The notes below the pieces were generated by a model. It had not been told where the DNA came from and did not search any database. It saw only the letters and a program-made list of their open reading frames with translations. Shown here in pieces: positions 30,430-47,553 of a stretch of DNA of 64,000 nucleotides (position 1 is its first letter; each line of letters begins with the position of its first letter). The stretch comes from Prauserella cavernicola (GTDB lineage: Bacteria > Actinomycetota > Actinomycetes > Mycobacteriales > Pseudonocardiaceae): positions 1,115,137-1,179,136 of the forward strand of contig NZ_JAENJH010000001.1 in NCBI RefSeq assembly GCF_016595675.1, in the 5' to 3' direction. The translations under genes were made by a program, and so were the position numbers.

Positions 30430-30598
30430 AACTGAATTCGGTCGAGAGTATGTCCAGCGCTGACGTCTCGCGTCAAGTGATTCCCGGAAAGCCCGTGAAG
30501 TGACCACTGTGGACGGTCACCGCCGGGGCACGACCGGACGACGTCGGCAACGCCGGTATCGTGCGGGGCATGACTGTGGAGTTCGCGCGGGTGACGTC

Positions 30599-31201: not shown

Positions 31202-31312
31202 GTTCCGCCGCACTGCACGAGGCCCGTCCCGAACTTACGATTGGCCGGTGACCCACCGGACCGACCGAAGGGGACCGAGGTCCCCGCGTACTGCCCTGCC
31301 CCGGCGCGCGGG

Positions 31313-32809
31313 ATGAGCGCTCCGGCACCGCTGTGGTTGTTCGCCGACCAGCTCGGCCCGCATTTCCACGGCACCGCGGACCTGCGCGACCGCGAGGTCC
31401 TGCTGATCCGGTCGAGCGCCGCGTTCGCCCGCAAGCCGTTCCACCGGCAGAAGATGCACCTGGTGGAGGCCGGGATGCGGCGGCTCGCCGAGGACCTGGG
31501 CGAGCGCGCGCGGATCATCGACGCGCGGACCTACACCGAGGGCCTGCGCCGGTTCGGCCGCCCCGTGGTGGTCCACGAACCCGGTTCGCACGCGGCCGAC
31601 GCGCTCGTGCGCAGGCTGCGCGACCAGGGCATGGTAGAGGAAATCCTGCCCACGCCAGGATTCGCGTTGTCCAAAGCGGACTTCGCGGAGTGGGTGTCCG
31701 GTCGCAGGCGCTTTCTCATGGAGGACTTCTACCGCGACCAGCGCCGCCGCTTCGGCGTGCTGCTGGAAGCCGACGAGCAGCCCGTGGGCGGCAAGTGGAA
31801 CTACGACCACGACAACCGCCACCCGCCACCCGGCCAGGCCACGCTGCCGGTGCCCGCGCCCTATCGGCCGCAGGAGAACGAGATCGACGAGCGGGTGCGC
31901 GCCGATCTCGACCGGGCGGAGCGCGACGGCGCCATCCGGCCCGTCGGTGTGGACGGCCCTCGCCGGTTCGCGGTGGGACACGACGAGGCCCGCCGGGCGC
32001 TGCGCCGGTTCCTCGACCACCGGCTGCCCACGTTCGGCCCGCACCAGGACGCCATGCTCGGCGGCGACTGGGCGATGTCGCACGCGCTGCTGTCGGTGCC
32101 GCTCAACCTCGGTCTGCTCGACCCGCTCGACGTCGCGCGCGAGGCCGAGCAGTGCTACCGCTCCGGCGACGCACCCCTGGCCAGCGTCGAGGGCTTCATT
32201 CGGCAGGTGCTCGGCTGGCGGGAATGGGTGTGGCACCTCTACTGGCACCTCGGCCCGGACTACCTGCGCCGCAACAAACTCCAGGCGCGCCGCACGCTTC
32301 CGGACTGGTGGTGGCGGCTCGACGCCGACGCCATCGAGGCGTCCTGTCTGCGCACGGCACTCGCCGGGGTGCGCGACCGCGGCTACGCCCATCACATCGA
32401 ACGGCTGATGGTGCTGGGCAACCACGCGCTGCAACGCGGCTACGACCCGGCCGAGCTGAACCGGTGGTTCGCCACGGCGTTCGTCGACGGGTTCCCGTGG
32501 GTGATGCCCGCGAACGTGATCGGCATGAGCCAGTACGCCGACGGCGGGATCGTCGCCACCAAGCCGTACGCCTCGGGCGGCGCCTACATCAACCGCATGA
32601 GCGATCACTGTCGCGGCTGCGCGTTCGACCCGAAGCAGCGGGTCGGCGAGGACGCGTGCCCGTTCACCGCCGGGTACTGGGCGTTCCTCGATCGCAACGA
32701 GGAACGGCTCCGGGGCAACCCGCGCCTGCGCCAACCACTCAACGGCCTGCGCCGGCTGGCCGACCTGCCCGCGGTCGTGGAGCAGGAAGCCGCCCGCGAC
32801 CGGTTCTGA
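31313..32809 (+). CDS. phrB: iron-sulfur bacterial (6-4) photolyase / cryptochrome (PhrB / FeS-BCP)
   Basis: A 498-residue cryptochrome/photolyase-related protein of the FeS-BCP group, which repairs (6-4) photoproducts with light using FAD and a 4Fe-4S cluster. The start LWLFADQLGPHF is typical. KWNYDHDNR is present, and the FAD region includes VLGWREWVWHLYWHLGPDYL and FVDGFPWVMPANVIGMSQYADGG. Four cysteines at 345, 433, 436 and 449 (SCLRTAL, HCRGCAFD, DACPFT) match the spacing of the cluster ligands in Agrobacterium PhrB. The ATG at 31313 fits the family start. An SDR gene follows after 17 bases. Confidence 0.93.
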   Translation: MSAPAPLWLFADQLGPHFHGTADLRDREVLLIRSSAAFARKPFHRQKMHLVEAGMRRLAEDLGERARIIDARTYTEGLRRFGRPVVVHEPGSHAADALVRRLRDQGMVEEILPTPGFALSKADFAEWVSGRRRFLMEDFYRDQRRRFGVLLEADEQPVGGKWNYDHDNRHPPPGQATLPVPAPYRPQENEIDERVRADLDRAERDGAIRPVGVDGPRRFAVGHDEARRALRRFLDHRLPTFGPHQDAMLGGDWAMSHALLSVPLNLGLLDPLDVAREAEQCYRSGDAPLASVEGFIRQVLGWREWVWHLYWHLGPDYLRRNKLQARRTLPDWWWRLDADAIEASCLRTALAGVRDRGYAHHIERLMVLGNHALQRGYDPAELNRWFATAFVDGFPWVMPANVIGMSQYADGGIVATKPYASGGAYINRMSDHCRGCAFDPKQRVGEDACPFTAGYWAFLDRNEERLRGNPRLRQPLNGLRRLADLPAVVEQEAARDRF

Positions 32810-32826
32810 CACTCCTGGAGGATTTC

Positions 32827-33756
32827 TTGCTCGACACCCTGCTGGACCGCACGGTCGTGCTCGGCTACTCGCGCTGGGGCTACCGCCTGCGGCGGCGCGG
32901 CTGGGCGCAGGACGACCCGCCCGCGGGCTCGTTGCGCGGCAAGGTCGTTCTCGTCACCGGCGCCAGCTCCGGCCTCGGCGAGGCCGCGGCCATCGACCTC
33001 GCCAAGCTGGGCGCGGCGGTGGTGCTGGTGGTGCGCAACGTCGAACGCGGCGAGCGCACCCTGGAACGCGTCCGCGAGGCCGTGCCGGAGGCCGACGTCA
33101 GCACCGCCCGCTGCGACCTCTCCGACCCCGGGTCGGTGCGGGAGTTCGCCGCCACGCGGTCGCGGGTGGACGTGCTGCTGCACAACGCCGGGGTGCTGCC
33201 GAAGGAGCGCACGGAGAACGCCGACGGGCACGAGCTGACGCTGGCCACTCACGTGCTCGGCCCGTTGCTGCTGACCGAGCTGCTGCGGCCCGTGCTGCGC
33301 GAGTCCGCCGACGCGCGGGTGATCCTGATGTCGTCGGGCGGGATGTACACGCAGGCGCTCGCCGTCGACGACCCCGAGTACCGCCAGGGCACCTTCCGCG
33401 GCGCGACGGCCTACGCGCGCACCAAGCGGATGCAGGCCGAGCTCACGCCGCTGCTGTCACAGCGCTGGTCCGGCGACGGCATCGGCGCGTACTGCCTGCA
33501 TCCCGGCTGGGCAGACACCCCCGGCGTCGCCGACTCGCTGCCCGGCTTCCAGCGGCTGACCAGCAAGCTCCTGCGCACGCCCGCCGAAGGCGCCGACACG
33601 GCGGTGTGGCTGGCGGCGACCAGGCCCGCGCCACCGTCGGGCCGGTTCTGGCACGACCGCCGCGAGCGTCCGCTGCACCTGCTGCCGCGCACCCGGCCCG
33701 CGGCGGGCCAGCGGGAGCGGCTGCTGCGGTACTGCCTCGAGGCGATCGGTCTCTGA
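32827..33756 (+). CDS. short-chain dehydrogenase/reductase (DHRS-12 / retinol-dehydrogenase-like)
   Basis: A 309-residue SDR. The cofactor motif VVLVTGASSGLGEAAAIDLA is preceded by an N-terminal extension (about 40 residues, GYSRWGYRLRRRGW). Also present are DVLLHNAGVLP, ILMSSGGMYTQAL and the catalytic Tyr-x-x-x-Lys in AYARTKRMQAEL. It starts at the TTG at 32827 behind GGAGGA and directly follows the photolyase gene. The extension and pattern resemble eukaryote-type DHRS12 proteins, and SDRs of this type often sit beside photolyases. The substrate is unknown. Confidence 0.85.
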   Translation: MLDTLLDRTVVLGYSRWGYRLRRRGWAQDDPPAGSLRGKVVLVTGASSGLGEAAAIDLAKLGAAVVLVVRNVERGERTLERVREAVPEADVSTARCDLSDPGSVREFAATRSRVDVLLHNAGVLPKERTENADGHELTLATHVLGPLLLTELLRPVLRESADARVILMSSGGMYTQALAVDDPEYRQGTFRGATAYARTKRMQAELTPLLSQRWSGDGIGAYCLHPGWADTPGVADSLPGFQRLTSKLLRTPAEGADTAVWLAATRPAPPSGRFWHDRRERPLHLLPRTRPAAGQRERLLRYCLEAIGL

Positions 33757-33765
33757 CAGCAGTCG

Positions 33766-34037
33766 TCAGCGTGCGATGAAGTCCAGCAGGACCTCGTTGA
33801 ACCGCGCCGCGTGAGGCGCGCCCTCGACCACCACCAGCCCGCTGTCACGGATCGCCGCACCGGTCGCAGGCGATCACGCGAATGGCCCGCCGACACGAGC
33901 GCGGGCACCCGGAACTCCCAGGAACTGCTGCTCAACGGCCGGCCGTGGATCAGCACCACGGGAGCTCCCGAGCCGTGGTCCTGATAGGACAGCTCGACGG
34001 GGGTGTTTCCGTCGGTTCCCACGGTCATGGTGGGCAC
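33766..34037 (-). pseudogene. decayed alpha/beta hydrolase (non-haem haloperoxidase type) with internal deletion
   Basis: The 5' part, from GTG at 34037 behind GGAGGAACG, encodes TVGTDGNTPVELSYQDHGSG and VVLIHGRPLSSSSWEFRVPAL, the normal start of a haloperoxidase-like hydrolase. The frame is then lost at SAGHS. In another frame VIACDR of the next strand is still legible, and in a third frame the end SGLVVVEGAPHAARFNEVLLDFIAR and a stop are intact. About 190 middle residues, including the nucleophile elbow, are missing. The remaining catalytic His (GAPHA) cannot act alone, so the gene is dead. Confidence 0.8.
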
Positions 34038-34197
34038 GGCGCGTTCCTCCTGCGGCCTCGGGTGCGCGGATGGGCCGCCCGGTCGCCCGACCCGACCGGT
34101 GCCGAAACCCGGCCTCGTCCGAATCCGACCAATACGGACACGTGGCCACCACGAATTCCCGGTGAACGACGTCGCCTCGACACGGATCGGGAAGGTG

Positions 34198-34752
34198 ATG
34201 GAGACACCGGAGTCGTTGATCGAACAGGTGGCGAAGGGCGACAAGGACGCCTTCGCCGACCTGTACGACCAGCTCGCTGGCGCGGTCACCGGCATGGCCG
34301 CGCGTGTTCTGCGCAACCAGGCACACGCGGAAGAGGTGATGCAGGAGGCGTTCCTGGAGGTCTGGCGCAAGGCAGGCACGTACTCACCCGACCGGGGAAG
34401 CGTGCGGACGTGGGCACTCACGATCGCGCACCGGCGCGCGGTGGACCGGGTCCGCTCGGCGAACTCGGCGACCGAACGCGAGGTACGCGACGGGCTGGCC
34501 AACCCTCACCGGGACTTCGACGAGGTGTCGGACGCGGTGCTGGCCGGCTTCGAACGAGCGGAGGTCCGCACCGCGTTGCAGAGCCTGACCGCGCCACAGC
34601 GGCAGGCGATCGTCCTCGCCTACTTCGAGGGACACACCTACGCCGAGGTCGCGGTCCTGCTCGAGCTGCCAGTGGGCACCGTCAAGTCCCGAATGCGAGA
34701 GGGGCTGTTTCGACTGCGGACGAGTTTGGAGGTGTCCGGTGACGACGAATGA
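34198..34752 (+). CDS. sigK: ECF RNA polymerase sigma factor (SigK-like)
   Basis: A 184-residue ECF sigma factor. Region 2 (about 15-85) has DAFADLYDQLAGAVTGMAARVL, AEEVMQEAFLEVWRKA and SVRTWALTIAHRRAVDRVR. Region 4 (about 120-175) has LQSLTAPQRQAIVLAYFEGHTYAEVA and VGTVKSRMREGLFRLR. The pattern, with WxLTxAHRRAVDRVR, matches SigK of mycobacteria and relatives. The ATG at 34198 follows GGGAAGG. The anti-sigma gene overlaps its end by 14 bases, which is usual for sigK-rskA pairs. Confidence 0.87.
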   Translation: METPESLIEQVAKGDKDAFADLYDQLAGAVTGMAARVLRNQAHAEEVMQEAFLEVWRKAGTYSPDRGSVRTWALTIAHRRAVDRVRSANSATEREVRDGLANPHRDFDEVSDAVLAGFERAEVRTALQSLTAPQRQAIVLAYFEGHTYAEVAVLLELPVGTVKSRMREGLFRLRTSLEVSGDDE

Positions 34753-34984
34753 CGATCACTACGACCCTCACGGTCTGCTCGGCGCCTACGTGCTGGACGC
34801 CGTCACGGACACACAGCGAGAGCAGTTCGAGCAGCACCTCGAGCAGTGCCCACGCTGTGGAGAGGAGATCGACGAGCTGCGCGCGGCGGCGGCGTGGCTG
34901 GGCTCGGTGGTCCCGCGCACGCCACGTCCGGCGACGCGGGAGTTCCTACTGGACCAGCTCGACCGGACCCCGCAGGGCGACTGA
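34739..34984 (+). CDS. truncated zinc-binding anti-sigma factor (RskA-like N-terminal domain only)
   Basis: An 81-residue protein starting HYDPHGLLGAYVLDAVTDTQREQFEQHLEQCPRC. This is the N-terminal ZAS helix bundle with the HxxxCxxC zinc motif (HLEQCPRC). RskA-type anti-sigmas are about 230 residues with a membrane helix and an extracellular part. Both are absent here because the gene stops right after the domain. The GTG start overlaps the sigma gene, so pairing with the sigma factor is likely. It would be a soluble inhibitor that cannot sense from the membrane. Confidence 0.82.
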   Translation: MTTNDDHYDPHGLLGAYVLDAVTDTQREQFEQHLEQCPRCGEEIDELRAAAAWLGSVVPRTPRPATREFLLDQLDRTPQGD

Positions 34985-35004
34985 CGGCTCCGTGTGGCCG
35001 TCAG
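34981..35004. terminator. hairpin across the convergent stops of anti-sigma and sigma-region-4-like genes
   Basis: CTGACGGC (34981-34988) and GCCGTCAG (34997-35004) are perfectly inverted with an 8-base loop. The stem contains the stop codon of each convergent gene, so it can terminate both transcripts. Confidence 0.6.
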
Positions 35005-35249
35005 CCGGACAGAGCTTGCGGGGGCTCGCGGTGGCCGCCCGCAGCGCGCAGCGCGTCCAGCAGCATGCGGTGGATGACCTCGCGCGCCAGGCCGGTGTCG
35101 GCGTGGATGTCCTCGACCGAGCGGCCCTGCAGGGCCGCGGTGAGCAGGTCGCGCTGGTCTCCGGGCAGCCCGCGCAGGGCGGCCAGGGCGTCCCGCGCGG
35201 GGCCCGGCCGGCCGGGCGCCGGTGGCAACTCGGAAACGGTGCTGGTCAT
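35001..35249 (-). CDS. small protein resembling an isolated sigma-70 region 4
   Basis: An 82-residue protein. After a Pro-rich N-terminus (about 1-18) it reads ALAALRGLPGDQRDLLTAALQGRSVEDIHADTGLAREVIHRMLLDALR. This resembles sigma region 4 helix-turn-helix (L-x-x-LP-x-x-QR-x-L and the recognition helix) without region 2. It is convergent with the sigma/anti-sigma pair. It might bind the same promoters or the anti-sigma, but no function can be assigned from sequence alone. Confidence 0.65.
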   Translation of the reverse strand: MTSTVSELPPAPGRPGPARDALAALRGLPGDQRDLLTAALQGRSVEDIHADTGLAREVIHRMLLDALRAAGGHREPPQALSG

Positions 35250-35276
35250 GGTCGTCCCTTCCGCCGGAGCCCGGCG

Positions 35277-36143
35277 TTACTTGTCCGCCACCGCGTCGAA
35301 GACCACACGCGCGTTGTCGCCGAACACCGCGCCGTCGAGGTGCCCGACTCCGGCGCTGGTCACCGAGACGAGCCGCCCGGTGCGGGTGGCGGGGTCGAAG
35401 TCGGCGAACCAGGGTCCGCCGCTGGCCCCGCCGACCATGTCGCAGTTGATCCTGAGGTTCCCCGCCGTCGGCGAGGCCGGGGCCTCGCTCTCGCAGTACA
35501 GCTGCCGCTGGCCCAGCTGGGGCCGCGACATCGGGTAACCGAAGGTGGTGACCTGCTCCCCCACGGAGCCGGAGAGGTCGACGTCGTTGGCGCCGACGGT
35601 GTCGGTCAGCGACCGCCCGTCGACCGGGTCGACCTGCACCACGCCGATGTCGTGGCCAGCCTGGTCCGTGGTGGTGAACTCGTGCGGGAAGGCCGCGGCG
35701 CGCACCGGGAACACCCCGTGCGGCGCCTCGCCCTCGTGATAGCCGGGCGCGAACACCAGGTCCCCGTACGCGGCGTCCTCCCTGCCCGGACTCGTGAGGC
35801 AGTGCGCCGCGGTCACCACCGTGCCGCCGCTGTCACCGGCCACCGAGGTGGCGGTGCAGTAGCTGTCCCTGAGGTCGTCGGGATCGGTGAAGTACAACCG
35901 CCCGACCGTCTCCAGCGGAGTGTCCTTCCACTCCTTGGTCAGCGGGCCGGTGTCCTGCGTCGCCTCGCTCTTCGCGGCGTCGCGCATGCGCTCCGGGGTC
36001 CAGTGCGCGAGCGCGTCCTCGCGCTGCTGCGCCGTGTACTCGGTCACCACCGGGGGCTCCTCCGCCGCGCTCGCGGGCGCACTGGTCACGGCCGAGGCCC
36101 CGACCAGGACAGCGAGCAGGGCCAGGGAGCGTGTGAGCCGCAT
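35277..36143 (-). CDS. secreted trypsin-like serine protease (glutamyl-endopeptidase-like)
   Basis: A 288-residue secreted protease. The signal peptide (about 1-27) ends APASAAE. A propeptide-like stretch with EYTAQQREDALAHWTPERMRDA is followed by the protease domain. The catalytic triad is in TVVTAAHCL (His), GHDIGVVQV (Asp) and CDMVGGASGGPWF (Ser, within GASGGP). The GASGGP form and YCTATSV start resemble V8-like glutamyl endopeptidases more than classical trypsin. It begins at the ATG at 36143 and lies just after the sigma-region-4-like gene. Confidence 0.88.
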   Translation of the reverse strand: MRLTRSLALLAVLVGASAVTSAPASAAEEPPVVTEYTAQQREDALAHWTPERMRDAAKSEATQDTGPLTKEWKDTPLETVGRLYFTDPDDLRDSYCTATSVAGDSGGTVVTAAHCLTSPGREDAAYGDLVFAPGYHEGEAPHGVFPVRAAAFPHEFTTTDQAGHDIGVVQVDPVDGRSLTDTVGANDVDLSGSVGEQVTTFGYPMSRPQLGQRQLYCESEAPASPTAGNLRINCDMVGGASGGPWFADFDPATRTGRLVSVTSAGVGHLDGAVFGDNARVVFDAVADK

Positions 36144-36297
36144 GTGATGCCTTTCGTCCGGACCGGTCATGATCCACTACCCGCTCGGCGAGCACGGCAA
36201 ACGTGATCCGGGGAACGAGGACTTGAGTGTGCCGTGGCGGCATACCTTTCACTCGGGACCAGCGCACCCCGCAGATCCCGACGACCTGGAGGAACCC

Positions 36298-36912
36298 GTG
36301 ACCCGCGAGGCCGATGAGCAGCGGTTGAAGCCGTTCCGGCGCTCCGAGGTGCTCAACCGCCACCTCTACACGATCGAGCACACCGGGCCCGACGGCTCCC
36401 CGGCGGTCTACACCGTCGAGGTCGACGCCAACGTGGACTGGGACGCACGGCTCTATGTCGACGAGAAACGGCACGGCCAGCAGGAGATGCCGGCCGAGTT
36501 CCCCGTTCCGGGCGGCAAGATCGAGGTGAACGCGTCGATGTACGGCATCCAGCGGGTCCACTTCGTGTCCGACACCGGCGAACAGACCCGCCTGTCGCCG
36601 CTACCGGGCACACTCGAGTACCTGCGGGCGAGGCTGGCCCAGCGCAGTCCGGTACTCGACCGGGTGATCGCGTGGACGGCGATCGTGATCCTGGTGATCA
36701 ACCTGGTGCTGGCGGTTCCCCAGGGTCTCGAGCTCCTCACCGGGGTCCCCCGCGTCGCCGAGCTGGTCGGCACGTTCACCTCGCCGGTCGCGCTCCCGGA
36801 GTGGCTCAACATCACGCTGCTCCTCGCGGGAGCCGCGGCCGCGGTGGAGCGGGTGCTCACGTTGCGCCGCAACAAGGTACTCGACGTCGAGACCATCTGG
36901 TCGGCGTTCTAG
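36298..36912 (+). CDS. hypothetical membrane protein
   Basis: A 204-residue protein I do not recognise. The first 125 residues are soluble and beta-rich (YTIEHTGPDGSPAVYTVEVDANVDW, LYVDEKRHGQQEMPAEFPVPGG). Two membrane helices follow (about 123-145, IAWTAIVILVINLVLAVPQG, and about 170-187, LNITLLLAGAAAAVERVL) and a basic end. The GTG at 36298 follows CTGGAGGA. It lies 134 bases upstream of the lasso precursor on the same strand but has no lasso-cluster family features. Confidence 0.75.
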   Translation: MTREADEQRLKPFRRSEVLNRHLYTIEHTGPDGSPAVYTVEVDANVDWDARLYVDEKRHGQQEMPAEFPVPGGKIEVNASMYGIQRVHFVSDTGEQTRLSPLPGTLEYLRARLAQRSPVLDRVIAWTAIVILVINLVLAVPQGLELLTGVPRVAELVGTFTSPVALPEWLNITLLLAGAAAAVERVLTLRRNKVLDVETIWSAF

Positions 36913-37046
36913 CCGCGCGCGTACCAGCCAGGCAGCGCCCGCGCCAGTCTCCGGCCGGTAGCGGACAAAGCCTGGCAGACCCCGGCGGACCGTTTGGATG
37001 ATGGCAGGGTCCGAATCCCCGATGAGCGAGGAATGAGGGAACTGTC

Positions 37047-37208
37047 TTGGACCGCAACGTGAACCACACCGAAGACCTTCACGACGGCTCGATCAGCGAA
37101 CTGCCCGCCTACGAGCCACCGTCCTTTGAGGACATGGGGTCGTTCCGCGGCGAGACCGGCGGGGGCGGCGCGCTGTACTACGACCCGAACATCCGGGGCA
37201 TCGTCTGA
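37047..37208 (+). CDS. lasso peptide precursor (A gene)
   Basis: A 53-residue precursor starting at TTG 37047, seven bases after GAGGG, with an in-frame stop just upstream. The leader (residues 1-38) carries the recognition motif YxxPxLxxxGxF as YEPPSFEDMGSF (residues 22-33, Phe in place of Leu) and Thr37, the conserved position -2. The predicted core is residues 39-53, GGGALYYDPNIRGIV. A ring from Gly39 to Asp46 would have eight members, leaving the tail PNIRGIV. Cleavage one residue earlier would give a nine-member ring. The predicted cyclised neutral mass is about 1545.8 Da by my arithmetic. The lasso macrocyclase gene follows after 35 bases. Confidence 0.88.
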   Translation: MDRNVNHTEDLHDGSISELPAYEPPSFEDMGSFRGETGGGGALYYDPNIRGIV

Positions 37209-37243
37209 CGGTCTGACCATCGACTCAGGAGAGTGAGCTCGAC

Positions 37244-39085
37244 ATGCTGGAGCACGGCGCGCTGTTCTTCCTCGTCCTTCCGGACCGCGAGGACAGCCGC
37301 GCCGTGCTCCGGCATCCCGGGCTGCGGGGCCACGACATCCGCGTGGTCGAGCACGCCTCGGGTCTGCCGTGGATCGTCGGCAGGTGGGACGACGGCGACC
37401 TGCGTCTCGCGCGCCGTGGTCCCGACTCGCTGGCCGTCGTCGGCCGTGTCTCCGCGAACGACACCGAACTGCTCGCCGCGCTCGCGTCCTGGGACCGGCG
37501 GACGGGGGCCGACGAGCCGTCACGCCGCTGGGCGGGTGATTTCCACGTCGTCTCGTCGGTCGGCGGTGAGGCCTCCCTGCGGGGCACCGCGTACGGAACC
37601 CGCCGCGTCTTCCACACCGACCACGCCGGGCTGACGGTCGCCTCCGACCGGGCCGCGGCACTGGCGCGGCTGACCGGCGCGCCCATCGACCGCTCCGCGC
37701 TGGCCACGCGCCTGATCTCCCCCTCGCCGTACCCGCTCGCCGAGCGTCCACTGTGGAACGGTGTGCACTCCGTGCGTCCCGGGTACCGGCTCGTGCTCCC
37801 CGGGGCCGGCGGTGCCCGGTCGGTGCGCTGGCACCGGCCGCCCGAGCCCGGCGTCGGCCTTCGCGACGGCGCCCGGCAGGTGCGCGAGGCGCTCGATCGC
37901 GCCGTCGCGCTGCGCACCGACGGCGACGGGCTGGTGAGCTCCGATCTCTCCGGCGGGCTCGACTCCACGTCGGTGGCCTTCGTCGCCGCGCGGCAGCTCG
38001 ACCCGAGCAGGTTCCTGGTGTCCACCGGCTCGGACAACCCCGGCAACTGCGACGACCTGAACTGGGCCCGCGACGCCGTCGCCCACCTGCCCGGCGTCGA
38101 GCACGACGTGTTCGCCGGAGCCGAGCAGCCCCTGTTCTACGAGGGCTGGCAGGACCTGCGGGTGCCCTTCGACGTGCCGTCCGAGGCGATGGTGAACCCG
38201 GACCGCGTGTTCGCCTCGGCGCGGCGCATGGCGCGGCGTGGCTCGCGACTGCACTTCAAGGGCATCGGCGGCGACCAGCTCTTCCAGAGCCCGCCCGCGC
38301 ACTACCACGCACTGCTGACGCGGCAGCCGCTGTTGTCGCTGCAGCGGATCCGCGGGTACCGGGCGCTGTTCTCCTGGCGCTGGCGCGAGCTGCTGCCCGC
38401 ACTGGCCGACCGGCGCTCGTTCGCCACCGCGATGTCGCGCCTTGACCTGGCCAACCCGCGTTCGGTGGAGTTCGGCACGGTCCTGCTGGACTGGTCCTAC
38501 CCGGCCCGGGTGCCGTCCTGGCTCACCGCCGAGTCCCGCGACCTGCTGGCCGAGGAGCTCGCGAGCACCTCCGGCGCGGCCCCGCTGGCCCCCACGCGGG
38601 GCCGGCACCTCGAACTCGAGGCGATCGACTGCTTCACCCGCGAGCTGGCCCCGTGGCGCGACATCGGCCGCCGCGACGGCATCGAGTTCGCCCTGCCCTA
38701 CTTCGACGACCACGTGATCGACGCGGCGCTGGCCGTGCGCCCGCGGGACCGGGCCACCCCGTTCGCCTACAAGCCGCTGCTGGCCGAGGCCATGCGCGGG
38801 GTGCTGCCCGCGGAGATCACCAGGCGCCGCACCAAGGCCACCGGCGACGCCGCCGTCGGCGCGGGGCTGCGCCGCGGACGCGAGGCACTGGCGGCCCTGT
38901 GGGAGGACTCCGTGCTCGGCGACCTGGGGCTGGCCGATCCCGGCGAACTGCGCCGGCTGTGCCTGTCACCGTCGGCCAAGGGCGCAGCGGAGGGACTGAT
39001 CGACGCCGTGGCCGCCGAACTGTGGGCCCGCTCGGCGGTGCCCGCCGCGGCGGCACCGGACCTGGAAAGGAGCGCGAGCGCATGA
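37244..39085 (+). CDS. lasso peptide macrocyclase (asparagine-synthetase-like, C protein)
   Basis: A 613-residue homologue of asparagine synthetase that adenylates the Asp side chain of the core and closes the macrolactam ring. The N-terminal half resembles the glutamine amidotransferase domain but lacks the N-terminal Cys nucleophile (it begins MLEHGALFFLVLP), as in known lasso cyclases. The ATP-binding motif SSDLSGGLDSTSVA places SGGLDS at residues 236-241. HFKGIGGDQLFQ and RRRTKATGDA are further family marks. The ATG at 37244 follows CAGGAGAG. It overlaps the RRE gene by four bases. Confidence 0.93.
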   Translation: MLEHGALFFLVLPDREDSRAVLRHPGLRGHDIRVVEHASGLPWIVGRWDDGDLRLARRGPDSLAVVGRVSANDTELLAALASWDRRTGADEPSRRWAGDFHVVSSVGGEASLRGTAYGTRRVFHTDHAGLTVASDRAAALARLTGAPIDRSALATRLISPSPYPLAERPLWNGVHSVRPGYRLVLPGAGGARSVRWHRPPEPGVGLRDGARQVREALDRAVALRTDGDGLVSSDLSGGLDSTSVAFVAARQLDPSRFLVSTGSDNPGNCDDLNWARDAVAHLPGVEHDVFAGAEQPLFYEGWQDLRVPFDVPSEAMVNPDRVFASARRMARRGSRLHFKGIGGDQLFQSPPAHYHALLTRQPLLSLQRIRGYRALFSWRWRELLPALADRRSFATAMSRLDLANPRSVEFGTVLLDWSYPARVPSWLTAESRDLLAEELASTSGAAPLAPTRGRHLELEAIDCFTRELAPWRDIGRRDGIEFALPYFDDHVIDAALAVRPRDRATPFAYKPLLAEAMRGVLPAEITRRRTKATGDAAVGAGLRRGREALAALWEDSVLGDLGLADPGELRRLCLSPSAKGAAEGLIDAVAAELWARSAVPAAAAPDLERSASA

Positions 39086-39339
39086 GCACCGCCTTCGCCA
39101 AGCACGTCACCTTCACCCGCACCGAGTACGGCGGCGTGGTCCTCGACCGCAAGAAGGGCCGCTACTGGCAGCTCAACCCCACCGCGGTGCTGGTCACCGA
39201 CACGCTCGGCGAGGGAGGCTCGGTCGCCGACGCGGTGCGCCGGGTCAGCCGGGAGTTCGCCGTGAACGAGCAGCGGGTACAGCACGATGTGACCGAGTTG
39301 CTGGACCGGTTGCGGGCATCGGGAGTGCTGCGCGCATGA
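39082..39339 (+). CDS. lasso peptide leader-binding protein (RRE, PqqD-like, B1)
   Basis: An 85-residue PqqD-like RiPP recognition element. The pattern is VTFTRTEYGGVVLDRKKGRYWQLNPTAVLV, then a helical end with RRVSREFAVNEQRVQHDVTELLDRLRASGVL. The strand GVVLDRKKGRYWQLN is where RREs bind the leader. It overlaps the macrocyclase stop (ATGA) and the peptidase start (ATGA), so all three enzymes are translated together. It should present the YxxP...GxF motif of the precursor to the peptidase. Confidence 0.92.
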   Translation: MSTAFAKHVTFTRTEYGGVVLDRKKGRYWQLNPTAVLVTDTLGEGGSVADAVRRVSREFAVNEQRVQHDVTELLDRLRASGVLRA

Positions 39340-39773
39340 GTGTGCAGATCATGATCCCGTGGGACGAACGGCTGCGTGGCCGGCGTCCCGCGCTGTGGTT
39401 CGGCACGAGGCTCGCGATCGCGCTCGCCCGGGTGCTGACGCTGCTGCCGCCGCACCGGCTGGAACGCGTGCTGACGGTCCTGCGGTGGCGGGCCAGGCCC
39501 GCTACCGCCGCCGAGACCGACGAGGCACTGCGATCGGTGCTGTCCAGCAGCCTGATGCTCAACGCGCACAAGGCGTGCCTGCCACGCTCGATCGCGGCGG
39601 CGCTGACCTGCAGGCTGCTCGGCCGCTGGCCCACGTGGTGCACCGGCGTCGGTGTCACCCCGCCGTTCTCAGCGCACGCCTGGGTGGAGGTCGACGGCGT
39701 GCCCGTGGGCGAGGTCGACAACGGCACCGGCTTCGCGAGGCTGCTCGTCGTCGCCCCGGCGGACGAGCGCTAG
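39336..39773 (+). CDS. lasso peptide leader peptidase (transglutaminase-like, B2)
   Basis: A 145-residue cysteine protease of the lasso B2 (transglutaminase-like) family that removes the leader peptide. Catalytic positions are Cys81 in HKACLPRSIAAA and His114 in FSAHAWVEVDG, with a probable Asp at 120. A basic N-terminal half with LALARVLTLLPPHRLERVL is typical. It overlaps the RRE gene by four bases and is the last gene of the cluster. No ABC transporter (D) gene follows. Confidence 0.92.
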   Translation: MSVQIMIPWDERLRGRRPALWFGTRLAIALARVLTLLPPHRLERVLTVLRWRARPATAAETDEALRSVLSSSLMLNAHKACLPRSIAAALTCRLLGRWPTWCTGVGVTPPFSAHAWVEVDGVPVGEVDNGTGFARLLVVAPADER

Positions 39774-40074
39774 TGCCGGACGCGCCGCAGCGCCAGTAGC
39801 TCCTCGGGCGTGAAGTCCGCCGACCGCGCTCACGTGACGATGCGCTGCTCCTCGTCGCGCAGCTCCCGCGCGACCTTCAGCACGCCGTGCTGGTCACCGT
39901 GCAGCAGGTCTCCGGCTCGACGGCCGGCCCGGCGTGCGTACCCGCGACTCCGCGGCCGCCGAGTCGATCGTGACCGCGGGCGCCCGCGGCGGACTCAGCG
40001 ACCTGCCGCGCGCCCCACGGCCGGCCAGGGATCGCTCCACCACGATTTTGAGTCGCAGACATGCGACAGCAACG
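39774..40074 (-). pseudogene. possible decayed gene remnant
   Basis: On the minus strand one frame reads GRRAGDLLHGDQHGVLKVAR, then ELRDEEQRIVT, a TGA stop, then SADFTPEELLALRRVRH and a stop just after the lasso peptidase. The two parts look like one protein's C-terminus broken by a nonsense codon. I cannot name the family, and no start or upstream part is recognisable. No other gene is seen in this 301-base stretch. Confidence 0.3.
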
Positions 40075-40464
40075 CTAGCTCTGCGGGAGATTCTCCCACA
40101 GGCCCACCACGTTGCCCTCGGTGTCGACGAAGTAGGCGTAGTAGCCCATCTGCGGGATCTCCGTGCGCCCCACAAGTTTCGCGCCGCCGAGCCGCTCGAT
40201 CTTCTCCAGCGCCGCGTCGATGCTCGCCACGTCGACGGTGAGCACCGGCCCCTTAGGTGCGGCGTCGGCACGGTCGAACATGCCGCCGTTGATGAACCCC
40301 GGTTCGGTTGGCATCCCCTGCTCCGAGGTCGGTCCGGTCGTCACGATCGTGTACGCCATCTCGGGCATGTCCGTGAGATTCCAACCGAACACCTCGCGGT
40401 AGAAGCCGCGGGCGCGCTCACCGCTGTCGAACGGGATCTCGAAGTGAACGATCTTGCCGCTCAT
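40075..40464 (-). CDS. VOC-family protein (glyoxalase-like)
   Basis: A 129-residue VOC-fold protein. It begins GKIVHFEIPFDSGERARGFY, with VFGWNLTDMPEM, and a second half VLTVDVASIDAALEKIERLGG and YAYFVDTEGNVVGLWE. This is the well-known pattern of stand-alone VOC enzymes, with His near the first strand and Glu at the end of the last (LWENL) as metal-type ligands. The ATG at 40464 gives the family start. The substrate is unknown. It is a single gene between the lasso cluster and a DoxX protein. Confidence 0.87.
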   Translation of the reverse strand: MSGKIVHFEIPFDSGERARGFYREVFGWNLTDMPEMAYTIVTTGPTSEQGMPTEPGFINGGMFDRADAAPKGPVLTVDVASIDAALEKIERLGGAKLVGRTEIPQMGYYAYFVDTEGNVVGLWENLPQS

Positions 40465-40588
40465 CGCCGTCTCCTGCCGTCTCCTGCTCCTCGCTCGATC
40501 TGACGGCACCGACGCTAGTTACGGCCACCAGGCCCGACCAGGGCACTTCTGCCCTATCCCGGCATGGTCCATTCGCGACAGTGCGCGC

Positions 40589-41011
40589 TCAGGTTCGCGT
40601 CGACCACAGTGCCCATGCGACGAGCAACGGCTGCCCCGCCAGGCGCACGGCGCGCTTGCGGTCGGTGTCCAGGCCGAAGCCGTCGCGCTTGTTCGTGTAC
40701 TGCGAGATGTTGCCGGGAAACACCGCGGTGAAGAACGCCGCGGTGAGGACACCCATCCGACGGCGTTCCTTCGGCAGCGCGATCAGCCCCGCGCCGAGCG
40801 CGATCTCGGCCGCACCGGAGAGCAGCACGACGTCGTCGGCGTCCATCGGAACCCACGGCGGCACCTGGGCCTGGAACTCCTCGCGGGCGAACGTCAGGTG
40901 CCCGATGCCGGCGAACGCGAGCCCGGCGCCGAGTGCGTGTGCGGCGACGCGACGCGCGCGATCCGTGCGAGCGCGGCGGCGACGCGTCGACAGCGTTGAA
41001 GTACGAGTCAT
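40589..41011 (-). CDS. DoxX-like membrane protein
   Basis: A 140-residue membrane protein with four helices. The DoxX-family start is ALGAGLAFAGIGHLTFAREEFQ, then VLLSGAAEIALGAGLIAL, a third helix with TAAFFTAVFPGNISQYTNKRDGFGLDTDRKR, and QPLLVAWALW at the end. The FPGNxxQYxxxxDxFGLDTDxxR segment is typical of the group. The ATG at 41011 is the more likely start, and one at 41035 is possible. The function in this organism is unknown. Confidence 0.85.
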   Translation of the reverse strand: MTRTSTLSTRRRRARTDRARRVAAHALGAGLAFAGIGHLTFAREEFQAQVPPWVPMDADDVVLLSGAAEIALGAGLIALPKERRRMGVLTAAFFTAVFPGNISQYTNKRDGFGLDTDRKRAVRLAGQPLLVAWALWSTRT

Positions 41012-41103
41012 GTCCCCACGGTAAGGACTCACCACCGATCGCGCCGGGTCACGGGAGGAGGAATCGATCGTGTCGCACCCGATGCCTCGCGGAGGAATCC
41101 CGC

Positions 41104-41298
41104 ATGCCCGCGCTCACCCGCGTTCTGGGTAGGGCCACCGCCGCCCACGCGGCGGACGCGCTGCCCGACCGCGGTGCACGCCTGAGTCAGCGGTCGGTCC
41201 ACAACGGACAAGTCTGGTCGCCTCGGTGTGGTCCTCAGTCGCTAGTCGCCGGTTCGAGGATCACGACCGCCGTCCCGCCGGGCCTGCGGGTCGCGTAG
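41104..41298 (+). pseudogene. possible fragment of a small membrane protein gene
   Basis: Behind GGAGGAATCCCGC an ATG at 41104 opens MPALTRVLGRATAAHAADAL. This resembles the N-terminus of small DUF4267-type proteins, but the continuation is hydrophilic and unlike that family, and the frame runs into the convergent nitroreductase gene. If real, it is a decayed start with the rest deleted. Confidence is low. Confidence 0.2.
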
Positions 41299-41705
41299 GC
41301 GTCGAGGTCCTTGTCCAGTTCGCGCCACCGGGCCCACAACCGCTCGTGCTCCTGGTCGCGGGCCGCCCTGCCCCGGACTCGCCTGGTGCCGTCGACAAGT
41401 ACCACGCTGGCGTCGGGTTTGGCCTGGAGGTTCAGCCACCACGCGGGTTCGGGCTCGGCCCAGCCGTTCATCGCGAGCGTCACCAGGTTCGGGCCGTCGT
41501 GGAAGTAGGCGAGGATCACGCTGCGCTCACGGCCCGTGCGACGCCCCACGGTCGTGAGCCGCATGGTGCCCCACCGGGTGCCTTTCGGCGGCCAGAGCCC
41601 GGTCCGGCCAGGCGTGAGGCGGTACAGGGCGCGGTGCACCTTCCACGCCAGCCGGACGAACCAGCGCGGCGGAAGCCGCCCGGACCACGTGCCTTCGCGA
41701 GACAT
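41235..41705 (-). CDS. F420-type nitroreductase/quinone reductase family protein (Ddn-like)
   Basis: A 156-residue protein of the deazaflavin-dependent nitroreductase (DUF385) family. It has a basic N-terminus with LAWKVHRALYRLTPGRTGLW, MRLTTVGRRTGRERSVILAYFHDG, LVTLAMNGWAEPEPAWWLNLQAKPDASV and a final WARWRELDKDLDAYA. The TVGRRTGRxRxV segment binds the F420 cofactor in the family. The ATG at 41705 fits. It probably reduces quinones or nitro compounds with F420H2. Confidence 0.87.
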   Translation of the reverse strand: MSREGTWSGRLPPRWFVRLAWKVHRALYRLTPGRTGLWPPKGTRWGTMRLTTVGRRTGRERSVILAYFHDGPNLVTLAMNGWAEPEPAWWLNLQAKPDASVVLVDGTRRVRGRAARDQEHERLWARWRELDKDLDAYATRRPGGTAVVILEPATSD

Positions 41706-41899
41706 GGGACCCCCAGGGGCTGCTCCGACGTCGGCCGAGATTAACCCCGCCGCGGGCGCCACACCAGGGCCACTGGACCCCGAAGGCGCCGACTCGGGCC
41801 CGCAGTGACCAGTCGCGCACCGGCGCACGCGTCGTGATCCCGGACGAGCCGGGCACGTACCGGCGGCCGGGTACGCATGCGTGCGGCTTCCCGGCGTCG

Positions 41900-42505
41900 C
41901 TACCTCGCGCGGGTGCCCGCCCAGTGGGCGATACCCGCGCCCGCCGCGGTGCCGACGGCGAGCGCGCCGAACAACAACACCCACCACACGTCGACGAGGT
42001 ACCCGGTCACCGCGATCGCGGCACCGAGACCGAGCACGCCGCCCACCCCGGCGGTCCCGCCCGGTGCGTCCCGGCGGCGAGGATTCGGGCGGCGGAAGAG
42101 CGCGGGCGCGGCCCAGAACGACGCAACGGAGATCATCAGCAGCACCACGCCGACGTCCCGCCAGAGGTAGTCCTGCTCGGCGAGTCCGTAGGCCAGCACC
42201 GCGATCCCCCCGGACAGGAGGACACCGAACGGCGCGGCCCTCGGCCCGCCCAGCAGGTAGAGCCCGGCGCACGCACCGACCGTCAGCGACAGGCCGATCG
42301 GAGCCAGGAACGCCGTCATCCCGACGAGCATCATGTGCTCGGACGGGTAGATCTCGGCCGCGCCCAGCGCGGCCGCCGCGATCCCGAGGACGGGGCTGGC
42401 GATCAGCAGCCCCATGGTGATCCAGGTCAGCCTCTTCTCGAACTTCTTCTCGAACAACAGCTGCTCGGCGGCCTGCTGCCCGCGACGCTTCGTGCCGGAC
42501 CCCAT
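41900..42505 (-). CDS. hypothetical polytopic membrane protein
   Basis: A 201-residue protein with about six membrane helices after a basic start KRRGQQAAEQLLFEKKFEKRL. Examples are GLLIASPVLGIAAAALGAA, VGVVLLMISVASFWAAPALF and GGVLGLGAAIAVTGYLVDVW. I do not recognise a family. It is a single gene, with 82 bases to the next gene downstream on the same strand. Confidence 0.75.
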   Translation of the reverse strand: MGSGTKRRGQQAAEQLLFEKKFEKRLTWITMGLLIASPVLGIAAAALGAAEIYPSEHMMLVGMTAFLAPIGLSLTVGACAGLYLLGGPRAAPFGVLLSGGIAVLAYGLAEQDYLWRDVGVVLLMISVASFWAAPALFRRPNPRRRDAPGGTAGVGGVLGLGAAIAVTGYLVDVWWVLLFGALAVGTAAGAGIAHWAGTRAR

Positions 42506-42587
42506 CGCACTCCCCCCGACCGAGCCGGGGCACCCCGTGTGCGATCACCGGCGACGGGCAGACTACCCGGTCAGCCCGGTTCGTGAC

Positions 42588-42848
42588 CTAGTCGCGCACG
42601 AGAAACGACGACCCACCCGGGTTCCGGATCTCGCGGACACCCAGGTCGGCGAGGTTGTCCACGAACCGCCGGCGCGTCACGGGAGCCGCCCCGAGCCGCC
42701 CGACGAAGGCGAGGTACTCCTCGTAGAGCTCGTGGGTCGCCTGCTCGCCATCCCACAGCAGTCCGCGGTGAAGCCACTCGACCACGGTCGGCTCGGGACG
42801 CGCCGTGCGGCGCTCATCATGGTCGCCGTGCTCATCGTGCTTGGTCAT
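42588..42848 (-). CDS. small hypothetical protein with winged-helix-like segment
   Basis: An 86-residue protein from the ATG at 42848 behind GGCAGGAG. A charged His/Asp/Glu-rich start (KHDEHGDHDERR) is followed by VVEWLHRGLLWDGEQATHELYEEYLAFVG, then VTRRRFVDNLADLGVREIRN. The second part resembles the small winged-helix domain at the end of some phage-type primases (YxxY...F...L...G). No other phage gene is near, so this is only a likeness. Function unknown. Confidence 0.65.
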   Translation of the reverse strand: MTKHDEHGDHDERRTARPEPTVVEWLHRGLLWDGEQATHELYEEYLAFVGRLGAAPVTRRRFVDNLADLGVREIRNPGGSSFLVRD

Positions 42849-42879
42849 GCTCGTCTCCTGCCGGGTCTGGTCGATCGGG

Positions 42880-43701
42880 TCACGCGGCCGCGGTGACGTC
42901 GCGGTCGTCCACCACCTGGTCGATCCACTCCGAGTACGCGGCCACCGACGTGAAGAGCGCGGGCCCCTCGGCGCACTCCGACTCTCCCTGCCCGGAGCGG
43001 CTGGTGGCCCCCGCGAGGCTCCAGGTTTCCGGACCGGTCCTGACGAGCAGCGGGCCTCCGGAGTCGCCGTGGCACGCGCCGACACCGCCGTCGCGCTCTC
43101 CCACGCACAGCTCGGCGTCGGTCTTGCGGTCGGTGCAGAGCTCCGGTGCCACCACGCGGGTGTCGAGCTGGTGCAGCTGTCGCGGCTTCTCCGGGGCCGG
43201 GCAGGTCACCGGGTCCTGACAGGTCGAACCCCAGCCGAGCATCCGGACGTCCGCACCCGGGTCAGTGGCCGTGGCGTCGGCGAGGTCGATGGGCTCGGCG
43301 TCCACCGGCTCGGCCAACCGGACCAGGGCCACGTCGTCGCCGACGAACTCGCCCTCTCCGTAGCCGGGGTGCACGACCTTCTCCACCACCCGGCGCTGCT
43401 CGCCGCCCTCGGTGCGGTCATTGCTGCCCACCCTGGCCGTGAGCTGCGTCAGGTCGTCGACGCCGGCCACGCAGTGAGCCGCCGTGACCGCCCAGGTGGG
43501 ACTCACGAGACTCGCCCCGCACCGGTGCAGTGGTTCTGGCGGACCGTCGAGCGTGAGGTTGACGATGAACGGATACTTCCCGTCCGCGACGTCTCCCCCG
43601 ATGACGGCGGCGTCACTGTCCGACGCGCCCGCGGCGGAGGTGAGGCCCGCCAGAATCGCGCCCGTACCTGCCAGCACTGCGGTGACCCGAGTCCAACGCA
43701 T
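42880..43701 (-). CDS. secreted S1-family serine protease (chymotrypsin fold)
   Basis: A 273-residue secreted protease. A signal peptide (about 1-28) and a short propeptide end at AVIGGD, the zymogen activation site (usual IVGG). The triad is visible in AVTAAHCVAG (His), GDDVALVRL (Asp) and ACHGDSGGPLL (Ser). The residue six before the serine, position 189 of chymotrypsin numbering, is Gly, so Arg/Lys specificity of true trypsin is not expected. The ATG at 43701 follows AAAGGAACGGA. Confidence 0.88.
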   Translation of the reverse strand: MRWTRVTAVLAGTGAILAGLTSAAGASDSDAAVIGGDVADGKYPFIVNLTLDGPPEPLHRCGASLVSPTWAVTAAHCVAGVDDLTQLTARVGSNDRTEGGEQRRVVEKVVHPGYGEGEFVGDDVALVRLAEPVDAEPIDLADATATDPGADVRMLGWGSTCQDPVTCPAPEKPRQLHQLDTRVVAPELCTDRKTDAELCVGERDGGVGACHGDSGGPLLVRTGPETWSLAGATSRSGQGESECAEGPALFTSVAAYSEWIDQVVDDRDVTAAA

Positions 43702-43826
43702 TCCGTTCCTTTCCACGACGACTGGAATCGGTGCCCAGTCTCGGGCGGAACAAGATCATCGGGCATCGGCCGATCGGCCGGGTGCGCCTCGGCCGAGTGG
43801 TCCGGACGAGCAGGACCACCGGCCCG

Positions 43827-45191
43827 TCAGTCCAGCGCGGAGGCCATCCACCGGAACAGCGGATCGGTGTGGCTCGGCAGCTCGGCGTACATCGCGCCGA
43901 GCCGCCGGTAGAGCTGGTGGGTGGCCGGATCGGGGACGAACTCGGTGCCCGGCCGCACCATCGCCTCGATCGCCTCGTCGAACCCGCCGAAGAGGCCGAG
44001 CCCGACACCCGCGCACAGGGCCGAGCCGAGCCCGGCGCCGCCGTTCGCGGTGCGCGTGGGCCGGTTGAACACGTCGGCGATGATCTGCATCAGCACCGCG
44101 GACTCCGCTCCCCCTCCGGAGACCAGCACCCGCTCGAACTTGGTGTTGAGCTCCGCGGCCATCGCCTCGGCGTTGCCGTGCATGGTCAGCGCGATCGCCT
44201 CCAGCACCGCGCGGTAGAGGTGGAACGGGCCCTGCCTGCCGTCGAAACCGAGGAACGCGCCCCTGCGGAACGGCGCCTCCACCGGAGCCAGCCAGTCGAG
44301 CACCGCCACCAGCCCGTCGGAACCGGCCGGGACAGTCGCGGCACCCTCGTTGAGCCGGTCCTCCTCGCCGAGCAGGTCGCGCAGCCAGCTGACCGTCCAC
44401 ATGCCACGCCGGATGCCGTGGCTCTCGTACAGATACTTCCCCGGGCGGCACGCGAAGTTCGACCAGAACGCCTCGGCGTCCCGCACGTTGCGCGCACCGG
44501 TGGTCATCCCGGCGATGTAGGTGCCGAGCGAGAGCAGCACGGTGCCGTCGTCGGCCAGCCCGCTGCCCAGTGCCTCCACCGACTTGTCGTTGGCGGTGGC
44601 GAACACCGGCAGCCCCGCGGGCAGCCCGGTGTGCGCCGCGGCGTCCTCGGTGACGGTGCCGAGCAGCTCGCCCGGGTTCACGAGCTCGAACAACATCTCG
44701 CGCGGCACGTCGGGCTCGGGCAGCCACGACCACGTGTCGGTGTCGATCGGCCACACGCCCTGGTAGTTCGCCGCCGTGTCCCGGAACCGGCCCGTCATCC
44801 GGGCGGTGATGTAGCCCGACGACGTCGTGACGTAGCGGACGTCGGGATCGGCGTGCTCGTACGGGCGCGACACCCGGTCGTCCATCCAGCTCAGCACCGG
44901 CTGGGCCAGGGTGCCGTCGGCCCGCAGCAGCGCGCGGCAGAACCGGATCGTGCACAGGCCGACGCCGCGGATGTCCTCCACCCTGCCCTCGAACACGGCC
45001 AGCGCCGCCCGCATGGCGCCGCCGATCGAGTCCCACAGGTCGTCGTCGGGGTGCTCGACCGCGCCCGGCTCCGGCATCGCGTTGGGGCGCAGCGGAACCC
45101 GGCCCCGCGCGTGCACGGTGCCGTGCTCGTCGTAGATCGTGACCTTGGTGCTCTGCGAGCCGTTGTCGATCCCGACCAGATACGCCGTCAC
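43827..45191 (-). CDS. FGGY-family carbohydrate kinase (YgcE-like)
   Basis: A 454-residue sugar/polyol kinase. It starts VTAYLVGIDNGSQSTKVTIYD, the FGGY phosphate-binding motif with G-S-Q-S-x-K. It has VLSWMDDR, then ATANDKSVEALGSGL, and the adenosine-type motif VLVSGGGAESAVLMQIIADV. Its GTG start at 45191 overlaps the FAD-oxidase gene as GTGA. It is the last gene of a three-gene operon with an SDR and a FAD-linked oxidase, the same trio as E. coli ygcW-ygcU-ygcE, whose substrate is not established. Confidence 0.9.
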   Translation of the reverse strand: MTAYLVGIDNGSQSTKVTIYDEHGTVHARGRVPLRPNAMPEPGAVEHPDDDLWDSIGGAMRAALAVFEGRVEDIRGVGLCTIRFCRALLRADGTLAQPVLSWMDDRVSRPYEHADPDVRYVTTSSGYITARMTGRFRDTAANYQGVWPIDTDTWSWLPEPDVPREMLFELVNPGELLGTVTEDAAAHTGLPAGLPVFATANDKSVEALGSGLADDGTVLLSLGTYIAGMTTGARNVRDAEAFWSNFACRPGKYLYESHGIRRGMWTVSWLRDLLGEEDRLNEGAATVPAGSDGLVAVLDWLAPVEAPFRRGAFLGFDGRQGPFHLYRAVLEAIALTMHGNAEAMAAELNTKFERVLVSGGGAESAVLMQIIADVFNRPTRTANGGAGLGSALCAGVGLGLFGGFDEAIEAMVRPGTEFVPDPATHQLYRRLGAMYAELPSHTDPLFRWMASALD

Positions 45192-46633
45192 GAGCGCTCC
45201 ACCGGGAAGATGGTGCCCGGGTTCATGATCCCCTCGGGATCGAAGGCCTCCTTGAGCCTGCGCAGGACCGCGTAGGCACTGCCGTGCTCCTGCTCCGTCC
45301 ACGGCGTGCGGTACTTGCCGATGCCGTGGTGGTGCACCATCGACCCGCCCCGCGCGAGCGTCTCCTCGACGATGATGGCGTTGATCGGAATGTGGTACTT
45401 CTCGATCTCCTCGCGGGGTTCGCAGTTGATCCGGTAGTCGTAGACGAAGTACATGTTCGTCCCGGTCTGGTAGCTGTGCGAGGAGTGGCCGCCGAGCATC
45501 GTGATGTCGTCGACGTGCGGGTACTCGCCGGTGATCCGCGCGATCACGGCGTCGTAGATCTCGCCGATCACCGACCAGTCGGCGGAGACCTCGGTGGTGT
45601 AGCCGAGGGTGGCCTCGGTGAGCATCGCCTTCTTCTCGGCCTCGATCTTGTCGGGTCCCCAGTTGAGGTTGTCGAACCACTCGCGGATGAGCTCGGGCTC
45701 CACCCGCTCGTGCGTGTGCCCGGCGAGCACCCTGTCGATCTCGGCGCTGGTGGCGTCGGCCAGCGGCGCGGGCCCCTCGGCGAGGAAGACGGCGACGCAC
45801 TTGCCCTTGGCGAAGTGGGAGAAATGCTGCGCGGCGTCCTGCTCCGAGTAGACCCTGGCCACCGAGGGCCGGTAGCCGTTGGTGATGACCTCGCGCAGGA
45901 CCGCGATGCCGGTGTGCACGTCGTCGAGCAGGTAGCCGTGGAAGCGGTAGTTCTCGGGCTCGTACTTGAACAGCTTCACCGTGGCCTCGGTGACGAAGCA
46001 CAGCGCGCCCTCGTTGCCGATGGCGATGCTGCGGATGTCCGGGCCGGCCGCACGCCGCGGCACGCTCTTGATCCTGGCGATGGTGCCGTCGGGAAACACC
46101 GCCTCCAGACCGGTGACCATGTCCTCGATCGCTCCGTAGAGCGTCGAGAACTGACCGATCGAGCGGGTGGCGACAAGGCCGCCGATCTGGGCCAGCGGCT
46201 TGGACTGCGGCGAGTGCCCTGTGGTCAGGCCGTGTTCGCGGACCCGCTCCTCGAGCACGCGCAGCGGGACGCCGCACTGCGCGGTGGCCTGCATGGTGAC
46301 GGGGTCGACGCTCACGATCTCGTCCATCTCGGACCCGTCGAGCACCACGGTGCGCTCGAACGCCGTCTCCAGTCCGCCCTCGGTGCCGGTCCGGCCGGTG
46401 CGCGGCACGATGTTGACCCGGTGCTGCGAGGCGAAGGACAGGACCCGCGCCACCTGCTCGGCGTCGCGGGCCCGCACGATGGCGACCGGTAAGGGACCGT
46501 CGTAGATGCCGTGGACGGCGGTGTACTTCTTGAACCTGTCGACGCTCGCCTCGCGCAGCAGCTGCTCGTCGGTGTCCACCCGGTCCGCGCCCGCGATCTC
46601 CCGAAGGCGGCCGATGATCGCCTGGTTGTCCAT
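45188..46633 (-). CDS. FAD-linked oxidase (GlcD / alkyldihydroxyacetone-phosphate-synthase-like, YgcU-like)
   Basis: A 481-residue VAO-type flavoprotein. The N-terminal FAD-binding domain has VAIVRARDAEQVARVLSFAS, VNIVPRTGRTGTEGGLE, TTGHSPQSKPLAQIGGLVATRSIGQFSTLYGAIEDMV and AIGNEGALCFVTEATVKLF. The C-terminal part ends GSAYAVLRRLKEAFDPEGIMNPGTIFP, typical of GlcD-type enzymes. The SIGQFSTxYGxIEDM segment is that of the AGPS/YgcU group. It overlaps the kinase gene by four bases and follows the SDR by 32 bases. Confidence 0.9.
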   Translation of the reverse strand: MDNQAIIGRLREIAGADRVDTDEQLLREASVDRFKKYTAVHGIYDGPLPVAIVRARDAEQVARVLSFASQHRVNIVPRTGRTGTEGGLETAFERTVVLDGSEMDEIVSVDPVTMQATAQCGVPLRVLEERVREHGLTTGHSPQSKPLAQIGGLVATRSIGQFSTLYGAIEDMVTGLEAVFPDGTIARIKSVPRRAAGPDIRSIAIGNEGALCFVTEATVKLFKYEPENYRFHGYLLDDVHTGIAVLREVITNGYRPSVARVYSEQDAAQHFSHFAKGKCVAVFLAEGPAPLADATSAEIDRVLAGHTHERVEPELIREWFDNLNWGPDKIEAEKKAMLTEATLGYTTEVSADWSVIGEIYDAVIARITGEYPHVDDITMLGGHSSHSYQTGTNMYFVYDYRINCEPREEIEKYHIPINAIIVEETLARGGSMVHHHGIGKYRTPWTEQEHGSAYAVLRRLKEAFDPEGIMNPGTIFPVERS

Positions 46634-46665
46634 AGTGGAATCTTTCTCCCGTTCGGTCGTGTCCG

Positions 46666-47442: not shown

Positions 47443-47553
47443 CGGGAGACCCTTTCGCCGGTGTGCTCGCCTGCCACGTGCGTGCCTGTCGTGGGCGACC
47501 GTACCGGCGCTGTCATCGTCGCTCCACCGCGCGAGGCGAGGATCTCCCGGAGT

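Follow-up and report, generated by a model that had tools for sequence, protein, structure and literature searches.

What does the compact locus at positions 37047-39773 of the window, the 64,000-nucleotide stretch of Prauserella cavernicola DNA analyzed here, encode, and if it is a lasso peptide cluster, what would its product be and what would hold the thread? A preliminary description had proposed a full A-C-B1-B2 set, and its coordinates were all found correct on re-checking. The precursor gene A adjoins the gene of an asparagine-synthetase-like cyclase C with an SGGLDS ATP-binding motif (37244..39085, + strand), followed by B1, a PqqD-like leader-binding protein (RRE; 39082..39339, +), and B2, a transglutaminase-like leader protease (39336..39773, +). 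All three enzyme frames are open, and ATGA overlaps join C, B1, and B2 (37244-39773), the pattern expected of coupled translation. B1 scored 95.5 bits against the NCBIfam model NF033530 (lasso PqqD; cut-off 70) and B2 101.5 bits against NF033537 (lasso B2; cut-off 33). The Pfam matches to Asn_synthase, PqqD, and Transglut_core3 each lay above their cut-offs, C reaching 122.8 bits against PF00733 (Asn_synthase; cut-off 21). The top NCBIfam model for C was NF033561 (albusnodin/ikarugamycin macrolactam cyclase) at 252.3 bits, below the cut-off of 300, and among solved structures C had one weak match, to asparagine synthetase B (E = 0.0064); the cyclase trees described below also place it among lasso cyclases. 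Cys81 and His114 of B2 are invariant in an alignment of five sequences including that of the window, and B2 of the cluster is the single Transglut_core3 match in its own genome.

The putative precursor gene (37047..37208, +) comprises 53 codons starting with TTG. It had been called easily missed, which is fair: it had no Pfam match and reached 14.1 bits against NF033521 (lasso leader; cut-off 19), and the family models used here would therefore miss it. A putative RBS, AATGAGGGA (GAGGGA; 37032..37040, +), lies six bases 5' of the TTG. The same AATGAGGGA is found upstream of the precursor gene of Amycolatopsis antarctica AU-G6 (L043/L007), in which a GTG aligns with the TTG of the window at an equal distance. 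The proposed TTG start gains support from this GTG at the homologous position behind the same RBS; the following in-frame candidate, a GTG at 37059 of the window, would be 18 bases away from the RBS, which is far. The predicted leader of 38 residues (37047..37160, +) contains YEPPSFEDMGSF and ends with Thr(-2)-Gly(-1), Thr at -2 being as first described. The motif YxxPxFxxxGxF is likewise present in the leader, but it is the motif bound by the RRE (protein B1) and not, as had been stated, the RRE itself. Compared with A. antarctica, the 17 codons of the leader part YEPP..TG differ by 8 synonymous and 2 non-synonymous changes, whereas the first 10 core codons, aligned ungapped, differ by 1 and 8, respectively. 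Judged from these codon differences, the leader is under purifying selection and the core is not, a pattern typical of RiPP precursor evolution and thus strong evidence that ORF 37047-37208 is the precursor.

A Pfam scan of 17 frames flanking the cluster, within 30500-48000, recognized no ABC transporter, and export would then proceed via a transporter encoded away from the cluster; for chaxapeptin, a nonspecific secretion system was thought by its authors to serve. The cluster could instead be silent or decayed in this strain, with the weak TTG start leaving the product unmade. Besides the start codon and the lack of a recognized transporter in the frames scanned, this would agree with the citrulassin-type Lp1 cluster of S. 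leeuwenhoekii, whose product was undetectable both natively and heterologously. Three open enzyme frames, purifying selection on the leader, and the conserved RBS argue the other way and make a silent cluster unlikely; the cluster is probably real and working.

Upstream of the cluster lie an ECF-type sigma factor gene followed by a zinc-finger anti-sigma gene (34003-34984, +), at about 2 kb, and a TetR-type regulator, at about 6 kb. Genes for trypsin-like, secreted-looking proteases (PF13365/PF00089) flank it at 35277-36170 (-) and 42880-43716 (-). The nearest acetyltransferase gene found, of the GNAT type, is some 7.8 kb downstream, with sugar-kinase and oxidase genes in between. No empty site for the cluster could be drawn against stretches of three same-genus genomes, in which only single genes match: a glyoxalase gene in G001 and G002 and a membrane-protein gene in G003, along with a 113-base piece in G002.

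The likeliest product, by analogy with processed lasso peptides, is the core GGGALYYDPNIRGIV (37161..37205, +), released by a B2 cut after Thr-Gly and predicted to form a Gly1-Asp8 ring with the tail PNIRGIV, as proposed earlier. B1 would bind the leader via YEPPSFEDMGSF and bring it to B2, which would cut 38 residues in; C would then adenylate Asp8 and couple it with the Gly1 amino group, so that the ring forms with the tail threaded through it. The computed mass of this lasso is 1545.794 Da, or 1602.815 Da with one extra Gly, in agreement with the 1545.8 and 1602.8 Da given before. Antagonism of other bacteria or signalling may be its ecological role.

Lasso leaders have Thr at -2 as a rule, and lasso precursors an acid at core position 7-9, which the window precursor follows. 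A cut after Thr-Gly is favored because citrulassin N and leepeptin are processed there. The leepeptin precursor reads ...EETGLYGVRNDE, its product was 57 Da (one Gly) below prediction, and the ring is Leu1-Glu8 (PMC6856326); citrulassin N is described as starting at Leu1 with an eight-residue ring and a seven-residue tail (PMC12971885). Every member of the cyclase group described below (10/10) has Gly after Thr. Counted from this cut, seven members, including the window, have an acid at core position 8 and the other three have it at position 9, so the ring size is not fixed. The acid stands at position 8 in 42/42 other Thr-Gly precursors counted. With four consecutive Gly residues, the cut site is uncertain to within one residue. 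Cleavage directly after Thr would give 16 residues with a nine-residue Gly1-Asp9 ring, and hence the higher of the two masses. Such a cut would suit the Gly next to Thr throughout the group and the acid at 9 that S. bambusae, G720, and G1194 have even with a Thr-Gly cut. Gly was also long held to be nearly exclusive as first lasso-core residue, and the leepeptin work dates from a time when it seemed nearly obligatory there (PMC6856326). Set against the processing of leepeptin and citrulassin N and against the Thr -2 rule, cleavage after Thr is nonetheless quite improbable, and we retain the cut after Thr-Gly. As had been supposed, this core appears not to have been described: the exact core as text had no match in the literature searched, nor had those, whole or in part, of six further members of the group; supplements lay outside this search, so that the supplement of a mining paper may contain the core.

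A leader-plus-core pattern has one match in the 64-kb window, and 20 mononucleotide shuffles of its full length yielded none. That ORF 37047-37208 arose by chance and the true substrate is encoded elsewhere is hardly credible, since, for all the weak match of the lasso leader model, the leader, start, and spacing are kept in A. antarctica and the same pattern, composed after the motif had been seen, occurred in 0/5000 shuffles of the intergenic stretch. Precursor matches at E <=0.01 were found in 4 of 390 family genomes, own included, the nearest relative being that of A. antarctica (E = 9e-9); one of the four, in G086, is another lasso type with two Cys, and the adjoining cyclase is 35% identical to C. 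A precursor profile run on 397 genomes of the order gave two matches besides the genome's own, L058 (leepeptin-like) and L059 (another precursor), near cyclases 36% and 38% identical to C, respectively.

Other lasso loci came up alongside. L058 (1459-1632, -; genome G019 of the window's family) is the leepeptin-like precursor and ends with TIGVANREEVVWHFDTWS. G086 has two neighbouring lasso precursors (L005) that read LGGGGRGYDYSRQCWIIC and LGPKGWGFEWDVRCLTWCD after Thr, each with two Cys. A Prauserella marina plasmid (NZ_CP016354.1, L042, 3936-7646) holds a different lasso cluster, with C-B1-B2 followed by a methyltransferase gene.

Relatives of C were sought in 390 family genomes (136 with a match at 1e-20), in 394 class genomes (8 at 1e-110, own included), and in 394 genomes of the family of G720, taken to be Streptomycetaceae (37 at 1e-112). 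Named genomes searched with a profile of four cyclases gave 6 loci, and a plasmid search with C gave 36 records, of which the best four are Streptomyces (43.6%). In trees of 27 and 24 rows, a 100/100 branch separates C and nine other cyclases from the remaining rows, and the six of these nine relatives present in a 38-row tree all join the window at 100/100. Across the branch from the group, the 24-row tree has the citrulassins, chaxapeptin, L029, L088, and L095; in the 38-row tree the group and the citrulassins form an open fork, and midpoint rooting of the 27-row tree divides the group in two. The placement of two long rows, L073 and L099, is unsure. Because the branching order differs between trees, the sequences define the group as one side of a strong branch and not as a proved sister clade of the citrulassins. 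L088, L095, and L097, from the family of G720, have the cores FLRRGPHEPRVRLPLGA / FLKRGPHEPKVRLPLGW with Glu at 8, and L088 and L095 group in the cyclase tree. The window and A. antarctica share the gene order A-C-B1-B2; G048 has C-B1-B2-A and Crossiella B1-B2-A-C.

After Thr-Gly, the cores of the group read GGGALYYDPNIRGIV (window), AFAAAPIEPGTTHGIK (A. antarctica), FVVAGFPDPIGPGWF (G048), SIVVVIADGTSNRGWF (G098), FRPSGFFDGIVVGGKF (Crossiella sp. S99.2), MGLPIGGWDWNHVGGWF (S. bambusae), MGLPAGFWDWKGIRGWL (G720), LWPFGPSADHFAPGFI (G1194), LVVIIQADWNAPGWF (G1371), and LVVIVQADWNAPGWF (G1309). All ten, a small group with the near-identical pairs L074/L075 and L045/L049, have Gly as the third-last residue, versus 1/42 other Thr-Gly precursors counted, which are mostly near-identical citrulassin tails and so not 42 independent cases. 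The sole exception is an odd row, L024, and three of the 42 rows are not citrulassins (L088, L095, L097). Left out of the count were L050 (core LLGFSGNDRLILSKN, Ser third from the end), L029 (core SGSPKAARDPFGRRWLP, Trp third from the end), L028, which has no believable precursor, and L027, L077, L081, and L085, whose cyclase was unrecognized; L030-L035 and L046-L048 also fall outside the set. The tail motif was noticed in the first five precursors of the group. The other five are a fair though small test of it, because their loci were picked by cyclase sequence and the precursors read afterwards. Tail ends in the group are GIV, GIK, GWF, GWL, GKF, and GFI, the commonest last pair being Trp-Phe (5/10).

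The short tail, which had been thought puzzling, is not: a 15-residue core divided 8 + 7 is common to the predicted window peptide, the citrulassins (citrulassin N among them), and chaxapeptin. In a review table, citrulassin A and chaxapeptin each have a "Yes" for 95 C, apparently in a heat-stability column, and the review states that lasso stability increases with a larger plug and with a smaller ring (PMC7549694). According to another review, caulosegnins illustrate that the residues flanking the ring can outweigh ring size (PMC13352647). In the window peptide, the most likely lock would have the ring encircle the chain at Gly13, so that Arg12 lies on its upper face and Ile14-Val15 on its lower face, as suggested by the conserved Gly and by the structures of other short-tailed lasso peptides. 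Because this tail has less bulk than the GWF tails, threading could be weak. More tentatively, and on balance doubtful, the group may represent an undescribed lasso subfamily beside the citrulassins that is defined by a glycine gate, in which an invariant Gly sits in the plane of an eight- or nine-residue ring and the next two residues form the lower lock. The window member would then be the extreme case, with Ile-Val instead of Trp-Phe and a nearly featureless Gly-Gly-Gly ring start, and would reveal how little bulk suffices to lock an eight-residue ring.

Taken together, the locus is very probably an intact four-gene class II lasso cluster making GGGALYYDPNIRGIV, from an uncharacterized group near but outside the citrulassins. 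It is ordinary in kind, as the pathway is known and lasso cores are hypervariable; what is new is the exact core and a group with a conserved tail Gly. The picture of lasso peptide biosynthesis is unchanged. The locus offers a testable product with an exact mass from a precursor gene that lies below the family-model cut-offs used here, as well as a small group that adjoins a characterized family and keeps one tail residue constant. Rings of one kind carrying GIV, GIK, or GWF tails bear on what holds a lasso thread.

Among known systems, an albusnodin-type cluster was considered and rejected. Albusnodin-type clusters have an acetyltransferase acting on a core Lys; among the frames scanned no acetyltransferase lies beside the window cluster, its core has no Lys, and its cyclase is below the NF033561 cut-off. 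Leepeptin resembles the window peptide in its leader (YETP..GAF..ETG), in a product starting after Thr-Gly, and in the acid at 8, but it has an 18-residue core with an aromatic tail, and its cluster includes two ABC transporter genes needed for secretion. Chaxapeptin shares with the window a compact A-C-B1-B2 cluster without a transporter, located for chaxapeptin on the S. leeuwenhoekii plasmid pSLE2, as well as a 15-residue core with Gly1 and an acid at 8. Its cyclase is 37.9% identical to C and its leader ends in Thr-Leu instead of Thr-Gly; beyond size, no similarity of the window core to chaxapeptin or sungsanpin was seen.

Citrulassins A and N match the window prediction in the Thr-Gly cut, the 15-residue core, the eight-residue ring to Asp8, and the seven-residue tail, and citrulassin cyclases are about 41-45% identical to C. 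Their cores follow the pattern NDRL.LSKN with Arg9, whereas the window core has neither, position 9 being Pro and the sole Arg standing at 12. Membership in the citrulassin family was rejected on the lack of Arg9 and on the cyclase, which lies outside the citrulassin group across the 100/100 branch. Citrullination at position 9 is likewise not expected, as there is no Arg9; PF03068 (peptidylarginine deiminase) had no match in the genome itself or in any control genome. Closest is A. antarctica AU-G6, whose precursor is uncharacterized and whose core, AFAAAPIEPGTTHGIK, differs from that of the window, with C 62.6% and B2 81% identical and the same gene order, start position, and RBS.
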